A stretch of 62,735 nucleotides of DNA from positions 1 to 62,735 of the forward strand of contig MTLP01000025.1 of assembly GCA_002009975.1 (NCBI GenBank), in the 5' to 3' direction. The DNA is from Thermococcus sp. JdFR-02 (GTDB taxonomy: Archaea; Methanobacteriota_B; Thermococci; Thermococcales; Thermococcaceae). Under the pieces are notes generated by a model that worked only from the letters and a program-made list of their open reading frames with translations, had not been told where the DNA came from and ran no database searches. The position numbers and the translations under genes are program-made. The stretch's first letter is position 1; each line of letters begins with the position of its first letter. Shown piece by piece: positions 8,870-58,643 of this stretch.

Positions 8870-9541
8870 CTACTCTTTCCTTGTTGGCAAATAGGGCAAT
8901 ATCCAACTGATAAAGCTGTCTAAACTTCTTGTTTGTATATATAGAGTCCCAGTTCCATAAAACTCTGCAATTAATCCTTCTCCACTAAATAGTGTGCTTT
9001 TTAATCCACCAACACGCTTTACTTTGAAATCTAATCCCTCAGTAAATGCAACCAAGTGACCAGTATCGATTATAAATTTTTCATTGTAAAGCTCTTTCTT
9101 GTAGATCGCTCCAAAACTTGAAAGGAACACTAACCCTCTACCAGTCATTTTGAGTAGGAAAAGTCCCTCTCTTGCAAAGAAAGTCTTTGCACCGCCCCAC
9201 TTTGTGTCAATATTTATGTTCTCTGAAGAAGCTAAAAATGCCCCACTTTGAGCATATAATGTTCCATTCAGCTCGAAAACTTCAATATCTCCAGGATAAG
9301 ATGGTGCTAATCCAATAGTTCCATCTCCCCCTTCTGCTCTAAATGTGTTAATAAAAAAGCTTTCTCCTGCTAAGATGGAGCGCTTTAAGGCTCCAAAAAT
9401 TCCGCCTTTAGCTTTGGTCTCTATCTTAATGGTTGGACTCATATGTACCATCGCACCGCTTTCAGCTTGTATTGCTTCTCCGCTCTCAAGCTCTATCTCA
9501 ACCAAACTAAAACTAGGTCTATGATTTATTTCATACCTCAA
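8870..9541 (-). CDS. AIM24/TIGR00266 family beta-helix protein
   Basis: The 224-aa protein matches the AIM24-like family by its opening RYEINHRPSFSLVEIEL, repeated glycine-rich strands (GGIFGALKRSILAGESFF, GRGLVFLSSFGAI) and the closing IQTRSLDSFISWI. Members form beta-barrel trimers of unknown biochemical role. I prefer the TTG at 9541, set behind GGTGGT, which gives the family-typical start; the in-frame TTG at 9553 overlaps that ribosome site. It is divergent from mvaS. Confidence 0.8.
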   Translation of the reverse strand: MRYEINHRPSFSLVEIELESGEAIQAESGAMVHMSPTIKIETKAKGGIFGALKRSILAGESFFINTFRAEGGDGTIGLAPSYPGDIEVFELNGTLYAQSGAFLASSENINIDTKWGGAKTFFAREGLFLLKMTGRGLVFLSSFGAIYKKELYNEKFIIDTGHLVAFTEGLDFKVKRVGGLKSTLFSGEGLIAEFYGTGTLYIQTRSLDSFISWILPYLPTRKE

Positions 9542-38914: not shown

Positions 38915-39778
38915 TTGTGGGACGCGCATAAAGGGCAGTTTAGCGAATGGCTCTCTTATAGAGTAATAGAGAAAACAGCGAAAGACTACATAAAAGCACT
39001 TGACAAATTCATGAAGAAGTACAAATTAGAGACCATTGGTGACTTGGTTTCTGCTCTCCAAAAAGAGCACTATACTCATCACCTCGTTAGCGCCTTGAGG
39101 AACTTTGTGACATTCCTTGAAGAGCGTGAAATCATTAATGAGGATGCAGCCAACAGGATAAGGAAGTACGCCAAGATAAAGAAGAGTGGCGTGGATCAGA
39201 CACACATCACAAATGATGAGTTAAGAGAAGCGTGGAAACAAGTATTAAGTTATGGAGAAAAACGTCGTGAGCTCACATTCAAGCTTTTAGTCTTTTCTGG
39301 TCTTAGGCTTTCTCATGTCCATTACCTCTTAACAACCTTTGACGCTTCTAAGCTCATCTTTGAGGGCAATATTGCAAAGTACCCTCTCCAAGAGGCCGCC
39401 AAAGGCACTAAAAGAGCTTTCTATGCTTACATGCCTGCGGATTTTGCTAAAGAGCTTGAGCCGGTTAAAGCAAGTTATGATGCCATGAGGGAGTGGGTAC
39501 GCTTTGAGGATAAAGCACGTAGAGTTAAAGCAAAGACTATCAGAAAATGGCATTTCAACTTCCTCATTAGGCATGGCGTTTCTTTCGAGGTCGCTGACTT
39601 CATTCAAGGGCGCGCTCCTCGTTCAATAGGAGAAAGACACTATGCAAACCTTGAGATGCTCGCAGACGAGGCTTATTCTCGTATTGTAGATTATTTAGTT
39701 GCAGTTTTGGAAGGTGAACAAATCTCGAAAAGAAAGTTTTTAGGAGTTAGAATTTATAAAGGAGGTGAGAATTTTTGA
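38915..39778 (+). CDS. SSV-type tyrosine integrase, C-terminal part (int(C))
   Basis: Catalyses site-specific recombination into a tRNA gene. The 287-aa segment contains a core-binding-like region, then the catalytic domain: Arg in KLLVFSGLRLSHVHYLL, HFNFLIRHG for the H-x-x-R-like box (KWHFNFLIRHGV), and the tyrosine in RSIGERHYANLEML. The frame remains open upstream to 38852, through the tRNA fragment, where the protein would read DPAGFEPATFAYEALNDLWD. TTG 38915 is only a formal start. The N-terminal part should be at the other end of the element; only after excision would the gene be whole. Confidence 0.88.
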   Translation: MWDAHKGQFSEWLSYRVIEKTAKDYIKALDKFMKKYKLETIGDLVSALQKEHYTHHLVSALRNFVTFLEEREIINEDAANRIRKYAKIKKSGVDQTHITNDELREAWKQVLSYGEKRRELTFKLLVFSGLRLSHVHYLLTTFDASKLIFEGNIAKYPLQEAAKGTKRAFYAYMPADFAKELEPVKASYDAMREWVRFEDKARRVKAKTIRKWHFNFLIRHGVSFEVADFIQGRAPRSIGERHYANLEMLADEAYSRIVDYLVAVLEGEQISKRKFLGVRIYKGGENF

Positions 39779-42011: not shown

Positions 42012-43346
42012 ATGAAGAGATTTTGGAAAAAAGGCTTTGTTTGGATTTTGGTTTTCTTGGTAGTAGCATCAGCAGTTGCAGTAGTTAGGGCAGCGACCAT
42101 AACAGAGACCGAGTGGGAGAACGCCATCACTGATCCAGGAATTGAGCTAATAGCTGGAACAAACGCCACCCTCAACGTAACAATATTAACCAGCTCTGGA
42201 GATCCCTTCGCTCTTAGCAGCTATACTAATGCTGATCAACTTGAAGTTACAGCGAAATTCATTGATGAATACGGAAACGCCCTTGACATGGATGGAGATG
42301 GCACCGCGGACATCTACACCTTGACAAACACCAGCACTCCAGGATTATGGACAGGCATTATAACTCTAGGCAACGTTACTCCCGGCGAATACACTTTGAA
42401 GATTGAGGCCCTTGCCAAGAACAGCACCACAAACACCATAGTAGATAATGCTACAATGCAGTTGAGTGTTTGGATCGCTGGAGGTCCATATTGGGTTTCA
42501 GTTGCTGATATCAAAGACGGCGATACAGTTGAAATTGGAAGCTTGAGCTTTACAATACGTGGTTTAAGCGAGCTTGGTGCAATCCTGGACCTTGGAAACC
42601 TCTCAACAAAAACAATTACAGACGATGACAGGGATGGCATATTTAGTTGGCAGTATGATGTCACAGGAGATGGCGCAAATGACTGGATAGTCTTCACAAA
42701 GAGCGACGATGACAGCGACAGATACATCATGATGGTCTACTCAAGCGACGCAAATCTCTTAGACAATTTCAACCTTGAAAGCGACTTTGAGGTCAGAGAA
42801 AGCGATGGTAGAGTTAAATTCACAAATAAGGTCTTCAAAGACTTGAATAACTATAAAGCTTATGTTGTATGGGACGAAAGCTTTTGGGCAAAGTTTGGCA
42901 TTAAAGCAGTTGATTACTACATAATCCCACTCAAAGGACGTGAGCACTGGACAGAGGGATGGGGAAACGTCGAAAGAACGGATATTAAAGTGATTAAAAG
43001 AGTTACATATCTCGGAGGACTCTTTGGAAGCGAGGAGGAAGTCTATTCAGGAAACATCTTCAACAAGAATGTGAACATCGATGATCTTATAACTGTCTTT
43101 GGCAAGTGGACTGGAAATGCAGCAAGGATTAGCTCTGGAGTGTGGGAAATACGGAAAGGACTTGGTGATATCACGATTCCAAACAGCTACAGCTTGAAAG
43201 AAAGAGATTTGAAAGCGCTTTCTGTTAGCTCCGAAGATTGGAGAGGATTCAACCCAATCACTAAGCCAAGCGGAAGAGGTTTCTTCAAACCTAACCTTGA
43301 CTGGAAGTCAATCCTCGGTCTCGAGGATGACGAAGAAAGCTCTTAA
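42012..43346 (+). CDS. Secreted 444-aa element protein (copy 1 of a duplicated family)
   Basis: Signal peptide (FVWILVFLVVASAVAVVRA), then a beta-sandwich-rich mature part: SSGDPFALSSY, VTAKFIDEYGN, TPGLWTGIITLG, PGEYTLKIEALAKNST, DDDRDGIFSW and WDESFWAKFGIKAVDYYIIP. DxDxDG-like loops hint at calcium binding; many N-x-S/T sites suggest glycosylation. The same motif order recurs in the protein at 55060-56388. I know no family function. GAGGTGAG precedes ATG 42012. Likely surface or virion component. Confidence 0.75.
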   Translation: MKRFWKKGFVWILVFLVVASAVAVVRAATITETEWENAITDPGIELIAGTNATLNVTILTSSGDPFALSSYTNADQLEVTAKFIDEYGNALDMDGDGTADIYTLTNTSTPGLWTGIITLGNVTPGEYTLKIEALAKNSTTNTIVDNATMQLSVWIAGGPYWVSVADIKDGDTVEIGSLSFTIRGLSELGAILDLGNLSTKTITDDDRDGIFSWQYDVTGDGANDWIVFTKSDDDSDRYIMMVYSSDANLLDNFNLESDFEVRESDGRVKFTNKVFKDLNNYKAYVVWDESFWAKFGIKAVDYYIIPLKGREHWTEGWGNVERTDIKVIKRVTYLGGLFGSEEEVYSGNIFNKNVNIDDLITVFGKWTGNAARISSGVWEIRKGLGDITIPNSYSLKERDLKALSVSSEDWRGFNPITKPSGRGFFKPNLDWKSILGLEDDEESS

Positions 43347-43361
43347 GGGGGCTGATTTAAA

Positions 43362-44936
43362 ATGAAGCCCCTTCCAGCGATTGCATTAGTTTTCATTGTA
43401 CTTTTTTCTACATTTAGTGTTGCAATAGCTGACAGTAACTCAACGAGCTCTGAAACCCCTTCTCTTGATATTCCTTCTTTGACTTTCTCCGACCTCGCGA
43501 ATAAGATTATCATTGAAATCAAGAAGTGGCGCTTTGATCCTCCCACTGGAATGCTAAGAACCAATACTGATATTTATGTGGACGAGCGCTTTTGGGACTG
43601 GATTGAAGGATCAATCCAAGCGAGTGCAAACCTAACTGACACGGCTCTCAAATGGCTTGAAACATTCAATCAAAAGGTGAGGAATGATGAAGAAATTCAA
43701 TGGATTTTCATTACCTGGACAAAACCAAATGACAGGCTTAAGAAAGCACTTGAGGCGCTTGGAGCTGACGTAATTTACATAGATGAGGATATTAACGCAA
43801 TCTCACTTAAAGCTAAACCTTCGCTTATCAAAAATCTAGTGTATTCCAAAGCTTTTGACTTTGACTACAGATTCTACATCAAGGAAATCTGGCCAGACCT
43901 CTATGTGGTGAATTCTCCAGTCTTCATTGAGAATGAGACGACCTTTACTACTGCAAACATCGCGATTACTCCTGAACAAGTCTCTTCGGCAATTTGGAAT
44001 ATTAAGCTCATCAAGGCAGATCTCGCTTGGTCAAAAGAAGGCATTACCGGAAAAGGAGTAACGGTGGCAATATTGGATACTGGAGTTGACTGTGATCATG
44101 TTGCCCTACAAGGAGCTTGTGTGGCATTTGTAAATTTCGTAGATGACGAGCCAGCCGAGGATTTGAACGGACATGGAACCCATGTTGCCGGTATCGTGGC
44201 GGGAAGACCTGTCAAAGTGACCTATGAAGGAAAACAAGTCTATGTGAGTGGGGTAGCTCCAGAGGCGAACATTCTCGCAGTCAAGGTCTTGGGCCAAGAC
44301 GGTGGAGGAACAATGACTCAGATCCTGCAGGGTTTGGATTATGTAGTCGAATGGAAGAAGAAGCACCCAAGCGAGCCCATAGTTGTTTCAATGTCGTTAG
44401 GTTCTCCATTTGGCTCACCAAATGATCCAATGGTCAAGAAGGTTGAGCAGCTCGTAAGAGAGGAACATATTCCCGTTGTCATTGCGGCTGGAAACGAATT
44501 TGTGGTCGTTGATTCTCCAGGAATAGCTTCTGGTGCCATCACCGTAGCAGCAGTCGATAGAGATATGAAAGTAGCAGACTTTTCAGGCAAAGGTCCAGGC
44601 TTGAATGCACTTAAGGACCTTAAGCCTGACATCGCTGCACCTGGAGTCAAAATCCTAAGCGCCAAAGCCGGAACAAAGAATGAGTTCATAGCTATGTCTG
44701 GAACTTCAATGGCAACTCCCCACGTGAGTGGTGTAGTAGCTCTTATTTTGCAAAAGCACGGCGATCTTACTCCTGAGACCATTAAACTCATCCTTGAAAA
44801 GACGGCTTACCCATTGGATGGCATTGATGCCTTGCCGACATGGAGCGGAGCAGGAGTTGTCGATGCCTACGCTGCGGTTAATGCAAATCCACAATCAGGA
44901 GGGCTCATTGACTTCCTAAGGAGGTTGTTCTCATGA
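43362..44936 (+). CDS. Subtilisin-like serine protease (S8) of the element
   Basis: Signal peptide (ALVFIVLFSTFSVAIAD), a propeptide of about 195 residues, and an S8 catalytic domain with the triad D239 (VAILDTGVDCDH), H271 (NGHGTHVAGIVAG) and S449 (MSGTSMATPHVSGVVAL); the oxyanion Asn is in VIAAGNEF. It ends in a short amphipathic tail (LIDFLRRLFS). It is fully equipped for activity outside the cell. In this operon it may process the adjacent secreted proteins or open the S-layer. Its stop overlaps the next ATG. Confidence 0.93.
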   Translation: MKPLPAIALVFIVLFSTFSVAIADSNSTSSETPSLDIPSLTFSDLANKIIIEIKKWRFDPPTGMLRTNTDIYVDERFWDWIEGSIQASANLTDTALKWLETFNQKVRNDEEIQWIFITWTKPNDRLKKALEALGADVIYIDEDINAISLKAKPSLIKNLVYSKAFDFDYRFYIKEIWPDLYVVNSPVFIENETTFTTANIAITPEQVSSAIWNIKLIKADLAWSKEGITGKGVTVAILDTGVDCDHVALQGACVAFVNFVDDEPAEDLNGHGTHVAGIVAGRPVKVTYEGKQVYVSGVAPEANILAVKVLGQDGGGTMTQILQGLDYVVEWKKKHPSEPIVVSMSLGSPFGSPNDPMVKKVEQLVREEHIPVVIAAGNEFVVVDSPGIASGAITVAAVDRDMKVADFSGKGPGLNALKDLKPDIAAPGVKILSAKAGTKNEFIAMSGTSMATPHVSGVVALILQKHGDLTPETIKLILEKTAYPLDGIDALPTWSGAGVVDAYAAVNANPQSGGLIDFLRRLFS

Positions 44937-47783: not shown

Positions 47784-47924
47784 TTGGATAAGGTTAGAAT
47801 GCTCGAGAGAAAGCTTGACGTGATAAAAGAGCTCAAAGTGCGCTTTGCAAGGGAAGAAGCTCAACTATTGAGGAAGATTAAGCAAGCAAAAATGAGGAGG
47901 GCTGGTCATGGAAGTCAATCCTGA
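47784..47924 (+). CDS. 46-aa basic coiled-coil miniprotein
   Basis: Short gene starting at TTG 47784 behind GAGGTGAGG and overlapping the next gene by 17 bp. The product is one charged helix (RMLERKLDVIKELKVRFARE, then RKIKQAKMRR), suited to DNA or scaffold binding. The strong ribosome site and perfect packing between neighbours argue that it is real. Confidence 0.6.
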   Translation: MDKVRMLERKLDVIKELKVRFAREEAQLLRKIKQAKMRRAGHGSQS

Positions 47925-48813
47925 GATACGTGAAGATATTAGAGCCGAGCTTGCGAGAAAGGTCGAGGGAAAAGACAGCCAAAAGGCTAGGATCATTAAG
48001 TTCACACTCCTCGGGATTGGCATCGGTGCAGTAGTAGGTCTCATTATGTTGGCTTTTCCAGGATTTTATGACACGCTCTATAAAATTCACCAAGGTCTAG
48101 CCAAGCCAAGGTATAGTTTCTACATCCTCCTTGGCTCAATAGCATTTATCGAATTTATGCGCATGACTTGGATCGAGAGCGCAAAAGCCAGAAGCAAGAG
48201 ACTAATTCCCTTAACATCGCCAGAAATGGAAATTTGGGTCAAAGAAAAGCCCTTGATTGGCATAAAATTACCCTTCACGGGCAAGGAGGTAAAGAGCCGC
48301 CGTATAAAACCTCACATAGTAGAGACTGAGCTCGGATGGTTGGTTTATCCTAACAAGAGTCTACTGAGCCCGCAGTGGAATGGTGAGGTCCATCATATTC
48401 CAGGTGACACTATTTTCGGCTACGGCAATACAAGAATAATTGCCGCGAAACAGCCCACCAATCCAACTTACTATATGACTGACGAGACAACCGGAGAGAA
48501 AATCCCGGTTTATGTCTGGCAACCAATTAACATTGGTGGCGAGATGTATATGCGCGCTCTCAAGGAAATTGAGTACCTCAAGACAGAGAACAAGATTCTC
48601 CAAGAGTTTGCCAAGAAGGGTTATGAGCTTGCCGAAACCATCAAGGAAATTCCTGAGGAATTCTTCGAAGAGTTGAGCAACCGTGGCTTCGAGAAGGCAA
48701 AGCAGATGCTTGAGATCGTTGGTAAGGGCTTCTTCAGCGAACTTGGCAAGATAAACAAGGAGATGTTTACCGCCATCATTGAAGAGCTGAAGAAATCAAA
48801 AGAGGCTTGGTGA
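47908..48813 (+). CDS. 301-aa membrane protein with cytosolic domain, unknown
   Basis: Two helices near the N-terminus (FTLLGIGIGAVVGLIMLAF and FYILLGSIAFIEFMRMTWI) anchor a ~210-residue soluble region, beta-rich first (GWLVYPNKSLLSPQWNGEVH, GDTIFGYGNTRII) and then a long C-terminal coiled coil (YLKTENKILQEFAKKGYELA). GAGGAGG precedes ATG 47908. Looks like a membrane anchor for an assembly machine; no family recognised. Confidence 0.65.
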   Translation: MEVNPEIREDIRAELARKVEGKDSQKARIIKFTLLGIGIGAVVGLIMLAFPGFYDTLYKIHQGLAKPRYSFYILLGSIAFIEFMRMTWIESAKARSKRLIPLTSPEMEIWVKEKPLIGIKLPFTGKEVKSRRIKPHIVETELGWLVYPNKSLLSPQWNGEVHHIPGDTIFGYGNTRIIAAKQPTNPTYYMTDETTGEKIPVYVWQPINIGGEMYMRALKEIEYLKTENKILQEFAKKGYELAETIKEIPEEFFEELSNRGFEKAKQMLEIVGKGFFSELGKINKEMFTAIIEELKKSKEAW

Positions 48814-48816
48814 ACC

Positions 48817-48829
48817 TTTCATTTTTTCT
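48817..48829 (+). terminator. T-rich terminator after the membrane-protein operon
   Basis: CTTTCATTTTTTC directly follows the stop at 48813. T runs end transcription in Thermococcales, so this should close the 40.1-48.8 kb operon before the structured region. Confidence 0.5.
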
Positions 48830-48836
48830 AAATCTT

Positions 48837-48949
48837 GCCGTGAAAGGGGTTGGACGCAAGTAGGGGTTCCGAAAGCGTCCACCCCCACGGCACCGGCCCA
48901 TGTGGGCCAAAACCGGTCACGAGGTGATTAGGGAAAAAAGCACCCTAAT
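48837..48949 (+). ncRNA. Three consecutive stable hairpins: candidate structured RNA, leader or origin
   Basis: Hairpin 1: GCCGTG (48837-48842) pairs with CACGGC (48886-48891), and GGGGTTGGACGC (48846-48857) with GCGTCCACCCC (48875-48885), with one bulged T and a 17-nt loop. Hairpin 2: ACC(48892-94)/GGT(48915-17) around GGCCC(48895-99)-ATGT-GGGCC(48904-08). Hairpin 3: ATTAGGG (48927-33)/CCCTAAT (48943-49) with a 9-nt loop. The GC-rich stems stand out from the AT-rich surroundings. It precedes the winged-helix/ATPase genes by about 55 bp. Strand and transcription are assumed. Confidence 0.55.
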
Positions 48950-49005
48950 GGCTTGACGGCCACACATCGTGAGAATCATGTATCTCTGAAAAGGAGGGAA
49001 AAACC

Positions 49006-49551
49006 ATGGTGAAAGAGTTAGTTGAGAGTAGAAAAGAATATATTTCACGTTTGAAGGCCGAAGCAGCACAAGAAGTAGAAGCCAAGTATCTCGACCTAGC
49101 ACTTGAGTTGATCGAAGAAGCTCAAAATCTCGAGAAAGACATGTCTAAAATCGCTGGAATCTACAGAGAGCGCAAGCTCAAGATGGCGTTAGAGATCATC
49201 GAGAACTACAAACGAGCCAATGATCTTCTTATCAAGGCTATTCTCACCGGAGAAAGTATGGAGATAGCTCTCAAGAAGCTTGAAAAGGCCGTCAGCTCAC
49301 GTGCGCCGTTAAGGATGAAGATCATTGCGGCATTGTATGGAGAGAAGGATCCAATGACACCTTCTGAGCTTGCTGAAAAGTTCGGGCTTGCAGTTCCGAC
49401 AGTCCATGAAGCACTTCAAGAGCTTCTGAGACTTCAGCTTATTGAGAAAGATGAAAAAGGTCGTTACAAGCTCCGTGATCAGGTTATGGAGAGCATCTTC
49501 AGGCTCCTCTGGAGCGGAGTTAACGAGCTCAAAGCGAGGGGAGAACTATGA
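49006..49551 (+). CDS. Winged-helix regulator with N-terminal coiled coil
   Basis: The 181-aa protein has a long helical N-terminal half (KAEAAQEVEAKYLDLALELI) and a winged helix in the C-terminal half (MTPSELAEKFGLAVPTVHEA, LQELLRLQLIEKDEKGRYKL). AAGGAGGG precedes ATG 49006. Its stop overlaps the ATPase start by 4 bp, so it may control or dock the ATPase rather than act as a free repressor. Confidence 0.78.
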   Translation: MVKELVESRKEYISRLKAEAAQEVEAKYLDLALELIEEAQNLEKDMSKIAGIYRERKLKMALEIIENYKRANDLLIKAILTGESMEIALKKLEKAVSSRAPLRMKIIAALYGEKDPMTPSELAEKFGLAVPTVHEALQELLRLQLIEKDEKGRYKLRDQVMESIFRLLWSGVNELKARGEL

Positions 49552-50801
49552 TGTCCCAATACCTTGACCGCTTTGTTATCGAGCCTGAGGAAATCAAAAT
49601 TGACTGGCCAAAAACTCACGCCGTGGGCATCACCAAAGGTGGAAATTTCGTTTATGTTTCCGCTGACATGATACATCGGTACATCTCTGGCCAGACTAAC
49701 ACGGGAAAGACCACGCTTGCACAGACACTCATGGAAGTAGACTTCCTCCGCGGGCGAAAAATTGTCGAGATAGAGCCCGCCTTGGAAGCAAAGAACGAGA
49801 GAGGCTTCATGAACATGCCCAACAATGACGAAAACATGCTCGAGGTGCTCAACAAGTACTTTCATGTTGAGCCGAGACCATTTAGAGCCATTATCTATTC
49901 TCCTGTCACAAGAAAATACCGTGCTTTCATGAAGAACGATGAAGGGATACGATCAAAGTTCTACAAACCACTGAAGATCACCGAGCCAGATGTTGTGGAC
50001 CTACTCAAATCAATATTTCCTGGAGGATCCATTGAAAGGTTAATCGTGAAAAAGGCTCACAAGCTCTACACCGAAGAAATTGAGCCCAAAAGGAAAAACC
50101 GGACAATTGAAGGGTTCCTCGAGACGTTCCAAGAGGTCGGAAAGAACGCAAATTTCAGCAGCTTTACCCTCATGAAGCTTGAATACATCGCCAGCATCCT
50201 TCATAGCGATGGAAAATACAAGATAGATGAAATACTCCAGAAGAAAGACGAAATAAGCGTCTTTACTTTCTCATTTATTCCTGATCCTCTAGATCGCTAC
50301 ATTTGGGCTATGGCAGTCTTGAACATAATCTACGACCGGTGGGAGGATATCAAACGGAGGGACGACGTTCTAAGTTTCTTCGTTGCCGACGCCCACTTAC
50401 TTGCACCCAAGAAGAAGAAAGATATGATTGACACGCTCGTTAGATACCAGGAGCGTATGAAGCAGAACCTCCAAGTCTATGCAAGAATCTCTCGTGGTAA
50501 GGGGCTGGTGTGGACCCTCGACAGCCAAGAGTACGACGATCTCGACGACGTGGTAGTTGCGCAGTGCCAAGAGAGGTTTGTTAAGCGTATGAGAAGCCGT
50601 GAAGTAGCTGAAAAACTGAAGATCGACTATAAAGAGCTAAAGCGCCTCCATCCCAAGTTCGCATTCTTTGATGACGGCTACATGATAAAGAAAATTCTCA
50701 TTAGGCCTCCAATGTCAAGAAAAGCCCGCTCTGGAGAATTTCTGCCCATCCATTTTGTTAAGGAATACGAGAGGTGGGAGAATGAGGAAGCGAATTATTA
50801 G
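49548..50801 (+). CDS. HerA/FtsK-like P-loop ATPase of the element
   Basis: The 417-aa protein has Walker A ISGQTNTGKTTLAQTL (K54), a Walker B-like strand SFFVADAHLL (D281 region) and LVWTLDSQEYDDLDDVVVAQ as sensor-like part, in the layout of archaeal plasmid and virus ATPases of the HerA/FtsK/VirB4 clade. Related proteins in PAV1, TPV1 and TKV elements are thought to package or move DNA. ATG 49548 and the next codon ATG are alternative starts. It lies beside a winged-helix protein and a coiled-coil membrane protein, suggesting a membrane-bound DNA translocase. Confidence 0.85.
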   Translation: MMSQYLDRFVIEPEEIKIDWPKTHAVGITKGGNFVYVSADMIHRYISGQTNTGKTTLAQTLMEVDFLRGRKIVEIEPALEAKNERGFMNMPNNDENMLEVLNKYFHVEPRPFRAIIYSPVTRKYRAFMKNDEGIRSKFYKPLKITEPDVVDLLKSIFPGGSIERLIVKKAHKLYTEEIEPKRKNRTIEGFLETFQEVGKNANFSSFTLMKLEYIASILHSDGKYKIDEILQKKDEISVFTFSFIPDPLDRYIWAMAVLNIIYDRWEDIKRRDDVLSFFVADAHLLAPKKKKDMIDTLVRYQERMKQNLQVYARISRGKGLVWTLDSQEYDDLDDVVVAQCQERFVKRMRSREVAEKLKIDYKELKRLHPKFAFFDDGYMIKKILIRPPMSRKARSGEFLPIHFVKEYERWENEEANY

Positions 50802-57911: not shown

Positions 57912-58025
57912 TACTCCATCCCCCCATATAACCAACCATCAATAAGGATTTTTACTCGAAAAAATATTAAAGTTTCCCGATAGGTTTATTAAGTTGTCCG
58001 ACAATTGAACCTATAGGTGAGACAA

Positions 58026-58271
58026 ATGGCTACCACAATTAAAGTTTCTACAAGACTTCCCTCAAAGATAGTTAAAGAGATCGACAAATTAGTTGAGAGC
58101 GGATTATTTACTAATAGGAGCGACTTTATCAAAGAAGCCGTTAGGCAGTATCTCAGAGAGTTAAAGAAAGAAGAACCTACCGAGGAAGAAAAATGGGTTT
58201 TAAATATGGTTCAGCCAGTGCTAGCCGAGGACTGGAATAGCGAGGAAGACAAATTTTGGGATGACTATTAA
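58026..58271 (+). CDS. Ribbon-helix-helix (CopG-type) antitoxin
   Basis: The 81-aa protein has an N-terminal ribbon-helix-helix (TTIKVSTRLPSKIVKEIDKL, then TNRSDFIKEAVRQYL) and an acidic C-terminal tail (LAEDWNSEEDKFWDDY) able to bind and block a toxin. GGTGAG precedes ATG 58026. With the gene 12 bp downstream it forms a type II toxin-antitoxin module; RHH dimers normally repress their own promoter. Confidence 0.85.
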   Translation: MATTIKVSTRLPSKIVKEIDKLVESGLFTNRSDFIKEAVRQYLRELKKEEPTEEEKWVLNMVQPVLAEDWNSEEDKFWDDY

Positions 58272-58283
58272 GGAGGCTTAAAG

Positions 58284-58643
58284 GTGGAATTCAAGCAGGG
58301 AGAATTAGTTCTTCTACCTTTCCCCTTTGACGATTTAACCAGAGCTAAGAGAAGACCAGCTTTAATTATCTCCTCCACTGAGTTTAATCGAATTAGTAGG
58401 ACTGTTATAGTTGTTGAAATAACTTCCAATCTTCGAAGTGGATTCCAGGAATTAAACGTGTTTATTAAGGATGAAGACATTAAAAGGTACCCACAGACAA
58501 AACCAATAATTCCAAGCATTATAAAACCCTACGTGATCTTTTCAATCAACAAAAAGCTCATCATAAGGAAAATCGGCATGCTAAACGAAGAAAAACTCAA
58601 AGAAGTAATTGACAACCTGCAGAAAATTTTCGCAAAACGTTAA
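58284..58643 (+). CDS. MazF/PemK-like toxin
   Basis: The 119-aa protein has the MazF/PemK pattern: FKQGELVLLPFPFDDLTRAK, RRPALIISSTEFN, the VVEITSNLRSG strand and PSIIKPYVIFSINKKLI. These toxins cut RNA. GTG 58284 follows GGAGGCTTAAAGGTG-type sequence (ribosome site AGGAGG). The module may stabilise the element in its host. Confidence 0.85.
   Translation: MEFKQGELVLLPFPFDDLTRAKRRPALIISSTEFNRISRTVIVVEITSNLRSGFQELNVFIKDEDIKRYPQTKPIIPSIIKPYVIFSINKKLIIRKIGMLNEEKLKEVIDNLQKIFAKR

Follow-up and report, generated by a model that had tools for sequence, protein, structure and literature searches.

A conserved structured RNA, a candidate leader of winged-helix and ATPase genes, in mobile elements of the Thermococcaceae

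In Thermococcus sp. JdFR-02 a gap separates a 301-aa gene from the winged-helix (WH)/ATPase gene pair downstream of it; what does this gap encode? The window, by which is meant the whole stretch of DNA analysed (62,735 nt, contig MTLP01000025.1), carries an SSV-type archaeal integrase gene at 38915-39778 (Pfam PF16795, E 7.5e-53), which probably marks the start of an integrated element, and then the operon to which these genes belong. A first-pass annotation had described three strong hairpins ahead of the WH and ATPase genes and had offered four explanations: a regulatory leader, a stand-alone RNA, a packaging signal or a replication structure. The genes concerned are as follows.

47908-48813, + strand: 301-aa gene upstream of the RNA; its 3' end recombines together with the RNA-WH-ATPase cassette
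49006-49551, + strand: winged-helix gene, 181 aa, with Pfam HTH/winged-helix matches; first cistron after the RNA
49548-50801, + strand: P-loop ATPase gene with Walker A GQTNTGKTT; overlaps the winged-helix gene

The WH gene has its own ribosome-binding site, GGAGG, just upstream, and homologues in all the RNA-bearing elements. The folded region occupies the largest gap of the operon (192 nt), and in all seven elements compared it has the same position, between the 301-aa gene and the WH/ATPase pair, and the same orientation. Its features in the window are these.

48820-48827, + strand: T-rich run just past the stop codon of the upstream gene
48837-48891, + strand: hairpin 1, 17 bp in three helices (6+5+6) with a 17-nt tip; in order, P1a (6 bp), a 3-nt A-rich bulge, P1b (5 bp), a 1-nt bulge, P1c (6 bp) and the structured tip
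48858-48874, + strand: tip of hairpin 1, 17 nt, AAGTAGGGGTTCCGAAA
48895-48908, + strand: hairpin 2, GGCCC-AUGU-GGGCC, starting 3 nt past hairpin 1
48915-48961, + strand: possible outer helix of hairpin 3, GGUC (48915-48918) with GGCC (48958-48961), from the fold of the window
48921-48927, + strand: GAGGUGA, extended Shine-Dalgarno-like sequence between hairpins 2 and 3
48927-48949, + strand: conserved stem of hairpin 3, AUUAGGG/CCCUAAU with a 9-nt loop, 18 nt past hairpin 2

The three hairpins, including the 17 bp and 17-nt tip of the first, are thus as the first-pass annotation had them. Its spacing of no more than 10 nt applies to hairpin 2 and not to the conserved stem of hairpin 3, which comes that close only with an ACCGG/CCGGT extension of hairpin 2 that is not conserved in the relatives. 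Counterparts of the outer helix can be recognized by eye in several relatives, such as AUGAG/CUCAU in G091. The GC content is 59% in 48835-48952 versus about 35-45% in the surroundings. The folding-energy z-score of the hairpin region is -4.3, and 0 of 200 shuffles folded equally well. When the whole window was scanned on both strands, the 120-nt stretch of the + strand from 48841 had the lowest energy of 2088 but ranked fifth by z-score. Since the z-score is not unique in the window, the energy notwithstanding, a single sequence is insufficient to prove selection, and to this extent palindromes generated by chance or by mutation, without function, would account for the region.

Comparison with relatives decides this point. 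A blastn-level search with the intergenic DNA identifies relatives in four other genomes of the Thermococcaceae, and two further ones, G029 and G024 (which we take to be the genome of Thermococcus kodakarensis KOD1), were reached through an ATPase search; in these two the ATPase is at 48% and the WH protein at about 30-32% identity. One further locus from the contig search, L075, has coordinates matching those of G091. A covariance model built from three sequences recovers the other four, with E = 8e-12 for G024 and 3e-9 for G029 in a 103-kb set. RNAalifold on a plain MAFFT alignment misplaced the distant members, and the covariance-model alignment was used instead; because this alignment is fitted to the structure, each sequence was also folded alone as a check. 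In the alignment of the seven sequences, which represent some five or six independent lineages of one archaeal family, 96.4% of cells are paired, and both sides have changed with pairing kept in 19 of 32 base pairs (40 cells). None of 500 shuffles came near the observed value, and structures slid along the alignment gave at most 2 pairs changed on both sides. The changes fall in hairpin 1 (14 of 17 stem pairs) and hairpin 3 (5 of 8 pairs); the stem of hairpin 2 is unchanged in all seven and, because it does not vary, yields no covariation evidence. Unconstrained folding returns an identical architecture of hairpin 1 in every relative, with the + strand more stable than the - strand in each.

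The alignment check suggested in the first-pass annotation, a search for compensatory changes in related Thermococcales elements, is therefore passed strongly, and the selection on RNA or DNA structure that it had supposed is established for a folded strand. The region of ~115 nt encodes a conserved structured RNA, and its + strand structure has been kept by selection in seven elements. Functionless palindromes are refuted by the covariation and can scarcely be credited at all, in view also of the near-invariant tip of hairpin 1 and the results of the model searches. Neither the window nor four relatives gave a match in Rfam, known archaeal riboswitches included (the best sub-threshold score was 18.7 bits versus 53.7 needed, on the opposite strand), and no tRNA was found. 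With strong covariation and no Rfam counterpart, the region is a candidate RNA family. It does not resemble a kink-turn or L7Ae target, in that Watson-Crick pairs come after the 3-nt bulge and no tandem G-A pairs are seen; nor, with no snoRNA among Rfam matches, a C/D or H/ACA guide RNA.

In the window the tip of hairpin 1 reads AAGUA-GG-GGUU-CC-GAAA, with 2 bp and a GRUU tetraloop on top of a 5x4 internal loop. Across the seven it is AAGUA-GG-GRUU-CC-GAAA or ...GAAC, four copies having GAGUA on the 5' side and one having GGUC in the cap; it is nearly invariant, and the changes at the lower pair of the loop are known variants of the sarcin-ricin motif. All seven copies have the sequence of that motif, namely A3-A11, bulged G4, U5-A10 and A6-G9, with a lower pair of a permitted type. 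Four copies have G-A there, the window has A-A, and G024 and G029 have A-C; each of these combinations has been observed or measured for the motif, of which the version with the A6-G9 pair and bulged G is favoured at high temperature (PMC8450098). Judged by these positions, the tip matches a sarcin-ricin (bulged-G) module. The GGGG run in the loop had been thought able to seek CCCC elsewhere; this idea is rejected, because in every one of the seven relatives two of its G's are paired with the CC of the tip itself, and the run, as part of such a module, is not free for remote pairing. Nine exact matches to the tip sequence in IMG/VR, none with flanking hairpins, are ascribed to chance.

The archaeal eL15 leader of Euryarchaeota also uses a bulged-G module (PMC7247131). 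A leader that senses a host ribosomal protein through the module could therefore be considered, as could a small-molecule riboswitch, since aptamers typically combine variable stems with a non-canonical, nearly invariant tip. Both are very unlikely here: Rfam, with its known archaeal riboswitches, gave no match, a single conserved internal loop leaves little room for a ligand pocket, and the genes downstream encode the WH protein and the ATPase, not a ribosomal protein.

The host elements belong to the pAMT11/TKV1 family of Thermococcales elements, reportedly described by Gonnet et al. in 2011, with which they have in common a syntenic membrane operon, a subtilisin-like protease and the WH and ATPase genes. 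Passages on TKV1 place this proviral element at TK0073-TK0105 (PMC8155482) and present it as a known relative of plasmid pAMT11 (PMC6972569). The RNA copy of G024 fits the position expected of TKV1 in T. kodakarensis:

72,610-72,727, + strand of T. kodakarensis: copy of the RNA at the presumed site of TKV1

The accessible parts of the literature on these elements, the 2011 paper aside, make no mention of such an RNA, and the main text of the T. kodakarensis transcript paper mentions neither TKV nor the genes TK0090-TK0094. Elsewhere in the window, 43250-43390 also folds strongly (z -4.3), with a GGGGGCU...AGCCCC-type hairpin in the neighbourhood of 43362, where the subtilisin-like protease gene starts, and at 58017-58643 a gene for a CdrS-like ribbon-helix-helix protein is followed by a 119-aa gene, a layout resembling a toxin-antitoxin pair.

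Plasmid pAMT11 has only a degenerate version of the RNA found in the seven elements. Hairpin 2 (as a similar GGCCCC...GGGGCC hairpin), an A-run, GGAGGUGA and a hairpin-3-like stem are present, and hairpin 1 is absent. The plasmid retains the ATPase (60% identical), so not every element requires hairpin 1. In the pAMT11 record (L074), a CDS annotated as 'unknown' at 8941-9378 extends across the leader region, its start probably being placed too far upstream, and the WH gene appears as two overlapping ORFs.

This plasmid bears on whether the selected strand acts as DNA, as a single-strand replication origin, a transfer origin or a packaging site on the + strand. Parts of the published accounts report single-stranded intermediates of pAMT11-type plasmids (PMC13107129) and propose related operons as a DNA-transfer apparatus (PMC6972569), and hairpins of single-stranded DNA tolerate G-T pairs too. 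However, no homologue of the pAMT11 Rep was found in those regions of the seven RNA-bearing elements that were read, and pAMT11 has Rep yet lacks hairpin 1, which makes a DNA structure less likely. The origin suggested for pAMT11 in the passages concerned lies upstream of rep, elsewhere than the RNA site (PMC13107129), and neither GAGGUGA nor an RNA-type sarcin-ricin module would be expected of DNA. A single-stranded DNA element is thus a long shot, and the replication structure proposed in the first-pass annotation is disfavoured, the region not lying beside a rep gene.

As to the function of the RNA, the favoured reading, to which we give a probability of about 0.5, slightly better than even, is an intercistronic leader on a polycistronic mRNA that would act in cis on the WH and ATPase cistrons. 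It is favoured because no conserved promoter lies upstream and because the genes of this tight operon are nowhere farther apart than at the RNA. No conserved TATA-like box was found upstream of the RNA among the relatives; the sole candidate of the window, near 48825, is not shared, and archaeal spacing would put the start inside hairpin 1. Because no conserved promoter precedes it, the RNA would be transcribed by read-through from upstream. The T-run at 48820-48827, with a T-rich counterpart in all seven elements, is a candidate weak internal terminator or processing site, or may be merely the 3' end of the upstream cistron; pairing of this run with the ribosome-binding site of the WH gene was no better than in composition-matched shuffles and was dismissed.

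A ribosome-binding-type sequence also points to a leader. GAGGUGA is identical in all seven relatives and persists in pAMT11 despite the loss of hairpin 1; in most copies it complements the 3' end of 16S rRNA over 8 to 9 nt. No start codon follows it at a usable spacing, which counts against the leader; it could serve for docking of the 30S subunit, or hairpin 3 could expose or hide it. The short ORF that opens with the GTG inside it (~10-14 codons in the copies, read by eye, with no ribosome-binding site ahead) was judged not significant. Also against a leader, no terminator follows the RNA, the ribosome-binding site of the WH gene is not consistently hidden by structure, and hairpin 1 is missing from the ATPase-bearing pAMT11. 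A further motif, G(A/G)GTTAG(T/C), lies just past the WH start codon (49018-49040) and is kept in seven of eight elements, pAMT11 included. Its TTA is a rare leucine codon (0-11% of leucine codons in six of seven ATPase genes checked); the exception is G091, also the element without the motif. Since WH protein identity drops as low as 30% despite these kept nucleotides, a constraint on the nucleotide sequence within the gene is suggested.

The distribution of the RNA ties it to the ATPase. The full covariance model finds it in 7 of 94 family genomes and 7 of 115 phylum genomes (E <= 5.3e-19), with nothing else below E 0.06 among the 94, and the RNA-bearing genomes are exactly the seven with full-length relatives of this ATPase. 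Identity along the operon, followed over 47908-50801 against G024, G029, G001 and G048, is uneven: G001 and G024 are 70-90% identical in the 5' part of the upstream gene and 37-66% from the RNA through the ATPase, and G001 and G048 show the reverse (55-61% and 75-98%). This profile shows the RNA travelling in company with the 3' end of the upstream gene and with the WH-ATPase pair; read from these identities, the four are an allelic cassette swapped by recombination apart from the flanking genes.

Such co-inheritance suits a cis leader, which lies directly upstream of the pair and co-oriented with it at all seven loci, and it fits equally well an RNA that serves the ATPase in trans. In the latter case a 115-nt domain would be cut from the operon transcript and would cooperate with the ATPase or the membrane complex, perhaps as the RNA component of a machine that translocates or packages DNA, like the phi29 pRNA. 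Strict co-occurrence with the ATPase favours this, as does the compact fold, with a hairpin 1 that is predicted to stay folded at 85 C. The tip, moreover, is nearly invariant although the WH protein has fallen to about 30% identity, so the tip may be recognized by a partner other than the WH protein. Yet the RNA has no conserved promoter of its own and no terminator was seen, GAGGUGA is left unexplained, and Rfam revealed no similarity to known packaging RNAs. Relatives of the ATPase were absent from IMG/VR, searched with a single sequence and with an alignment, and from phage records, so an RNA-using ATPase lacks independent support; among plasmids, the search returned pAMT11 only. No credible relative of the ATPase was found by sequence among solved structures, and AlphaFold models built on alignments of two sequences were of too low quality to be used for fold searches (overall pLDDT 59 for WH, 32 for the ATPase). 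Taken together, a processed RNA acting in trans is rather unlikely. Its boldest form, in which the excised RNA would be a working part of an ATPase-driven archaeal DNA-transfer or packaging machine, its bulged-G tip docking the ATPase or the ribosome, is speculative and improbable.

The leader acting in cis is the best fit on account of its fixed place, the lack of a conserved promoter of its own, the ribosome-binding-type sequence and its co-inheritance with the cassette. Among the four options of the first-pass annotation the leader comes out ahead, and a stand-alone or packaging RNA is its rival. On these grounds the folded RNA probably controls expression of the WH/ATPase pair. The bulged-G tip, a kind of module to which proteins often bind (PMC7247131), would serve as a protein-binding platform, and protein binding, 30S docking at GAGGUGA or both could set translation or stability of the WH-ATPase portion of the message relative to that of the upstream membrane-protein cistrons. 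Because a copy stands at the TKV1 site of the genetically tractable T. kodakarensis, transcription, folding and the effect on the WH and ATPase genes are directly testable. This candidate RNA family is a feature of the mobile element and not of its host; inherited along with a DNA-translocase-like ATPase, it offers a way into the control of transfer-like operons in these elements.

Among known systems, the sarcin-ricin, bulged-G or loop E module of 23S H95, 5S loop E and other RNAs shares all positions of its 5x4 loop with the tip of hairpin 1, whereas the cap differs from that of 23S, being GG-GRUU-CC here; it is a three-dimensional module and not a family, found here on an intergenic hairpin of a mobile element. 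The phi29 pRNA offers an analogy only, as an RNA genetically linked to a translocating ATPase; the two RNAs have no similarity in Rfam. Archaeal ribosomal-protein leaders are likewise covarying structured leaders with a module of the bulged-G type, but they precede a ribosomal-protein gene, whereas the RNA of the window, unmatched in Rfam, precedes the WH and ATPase genes of a mobile element.
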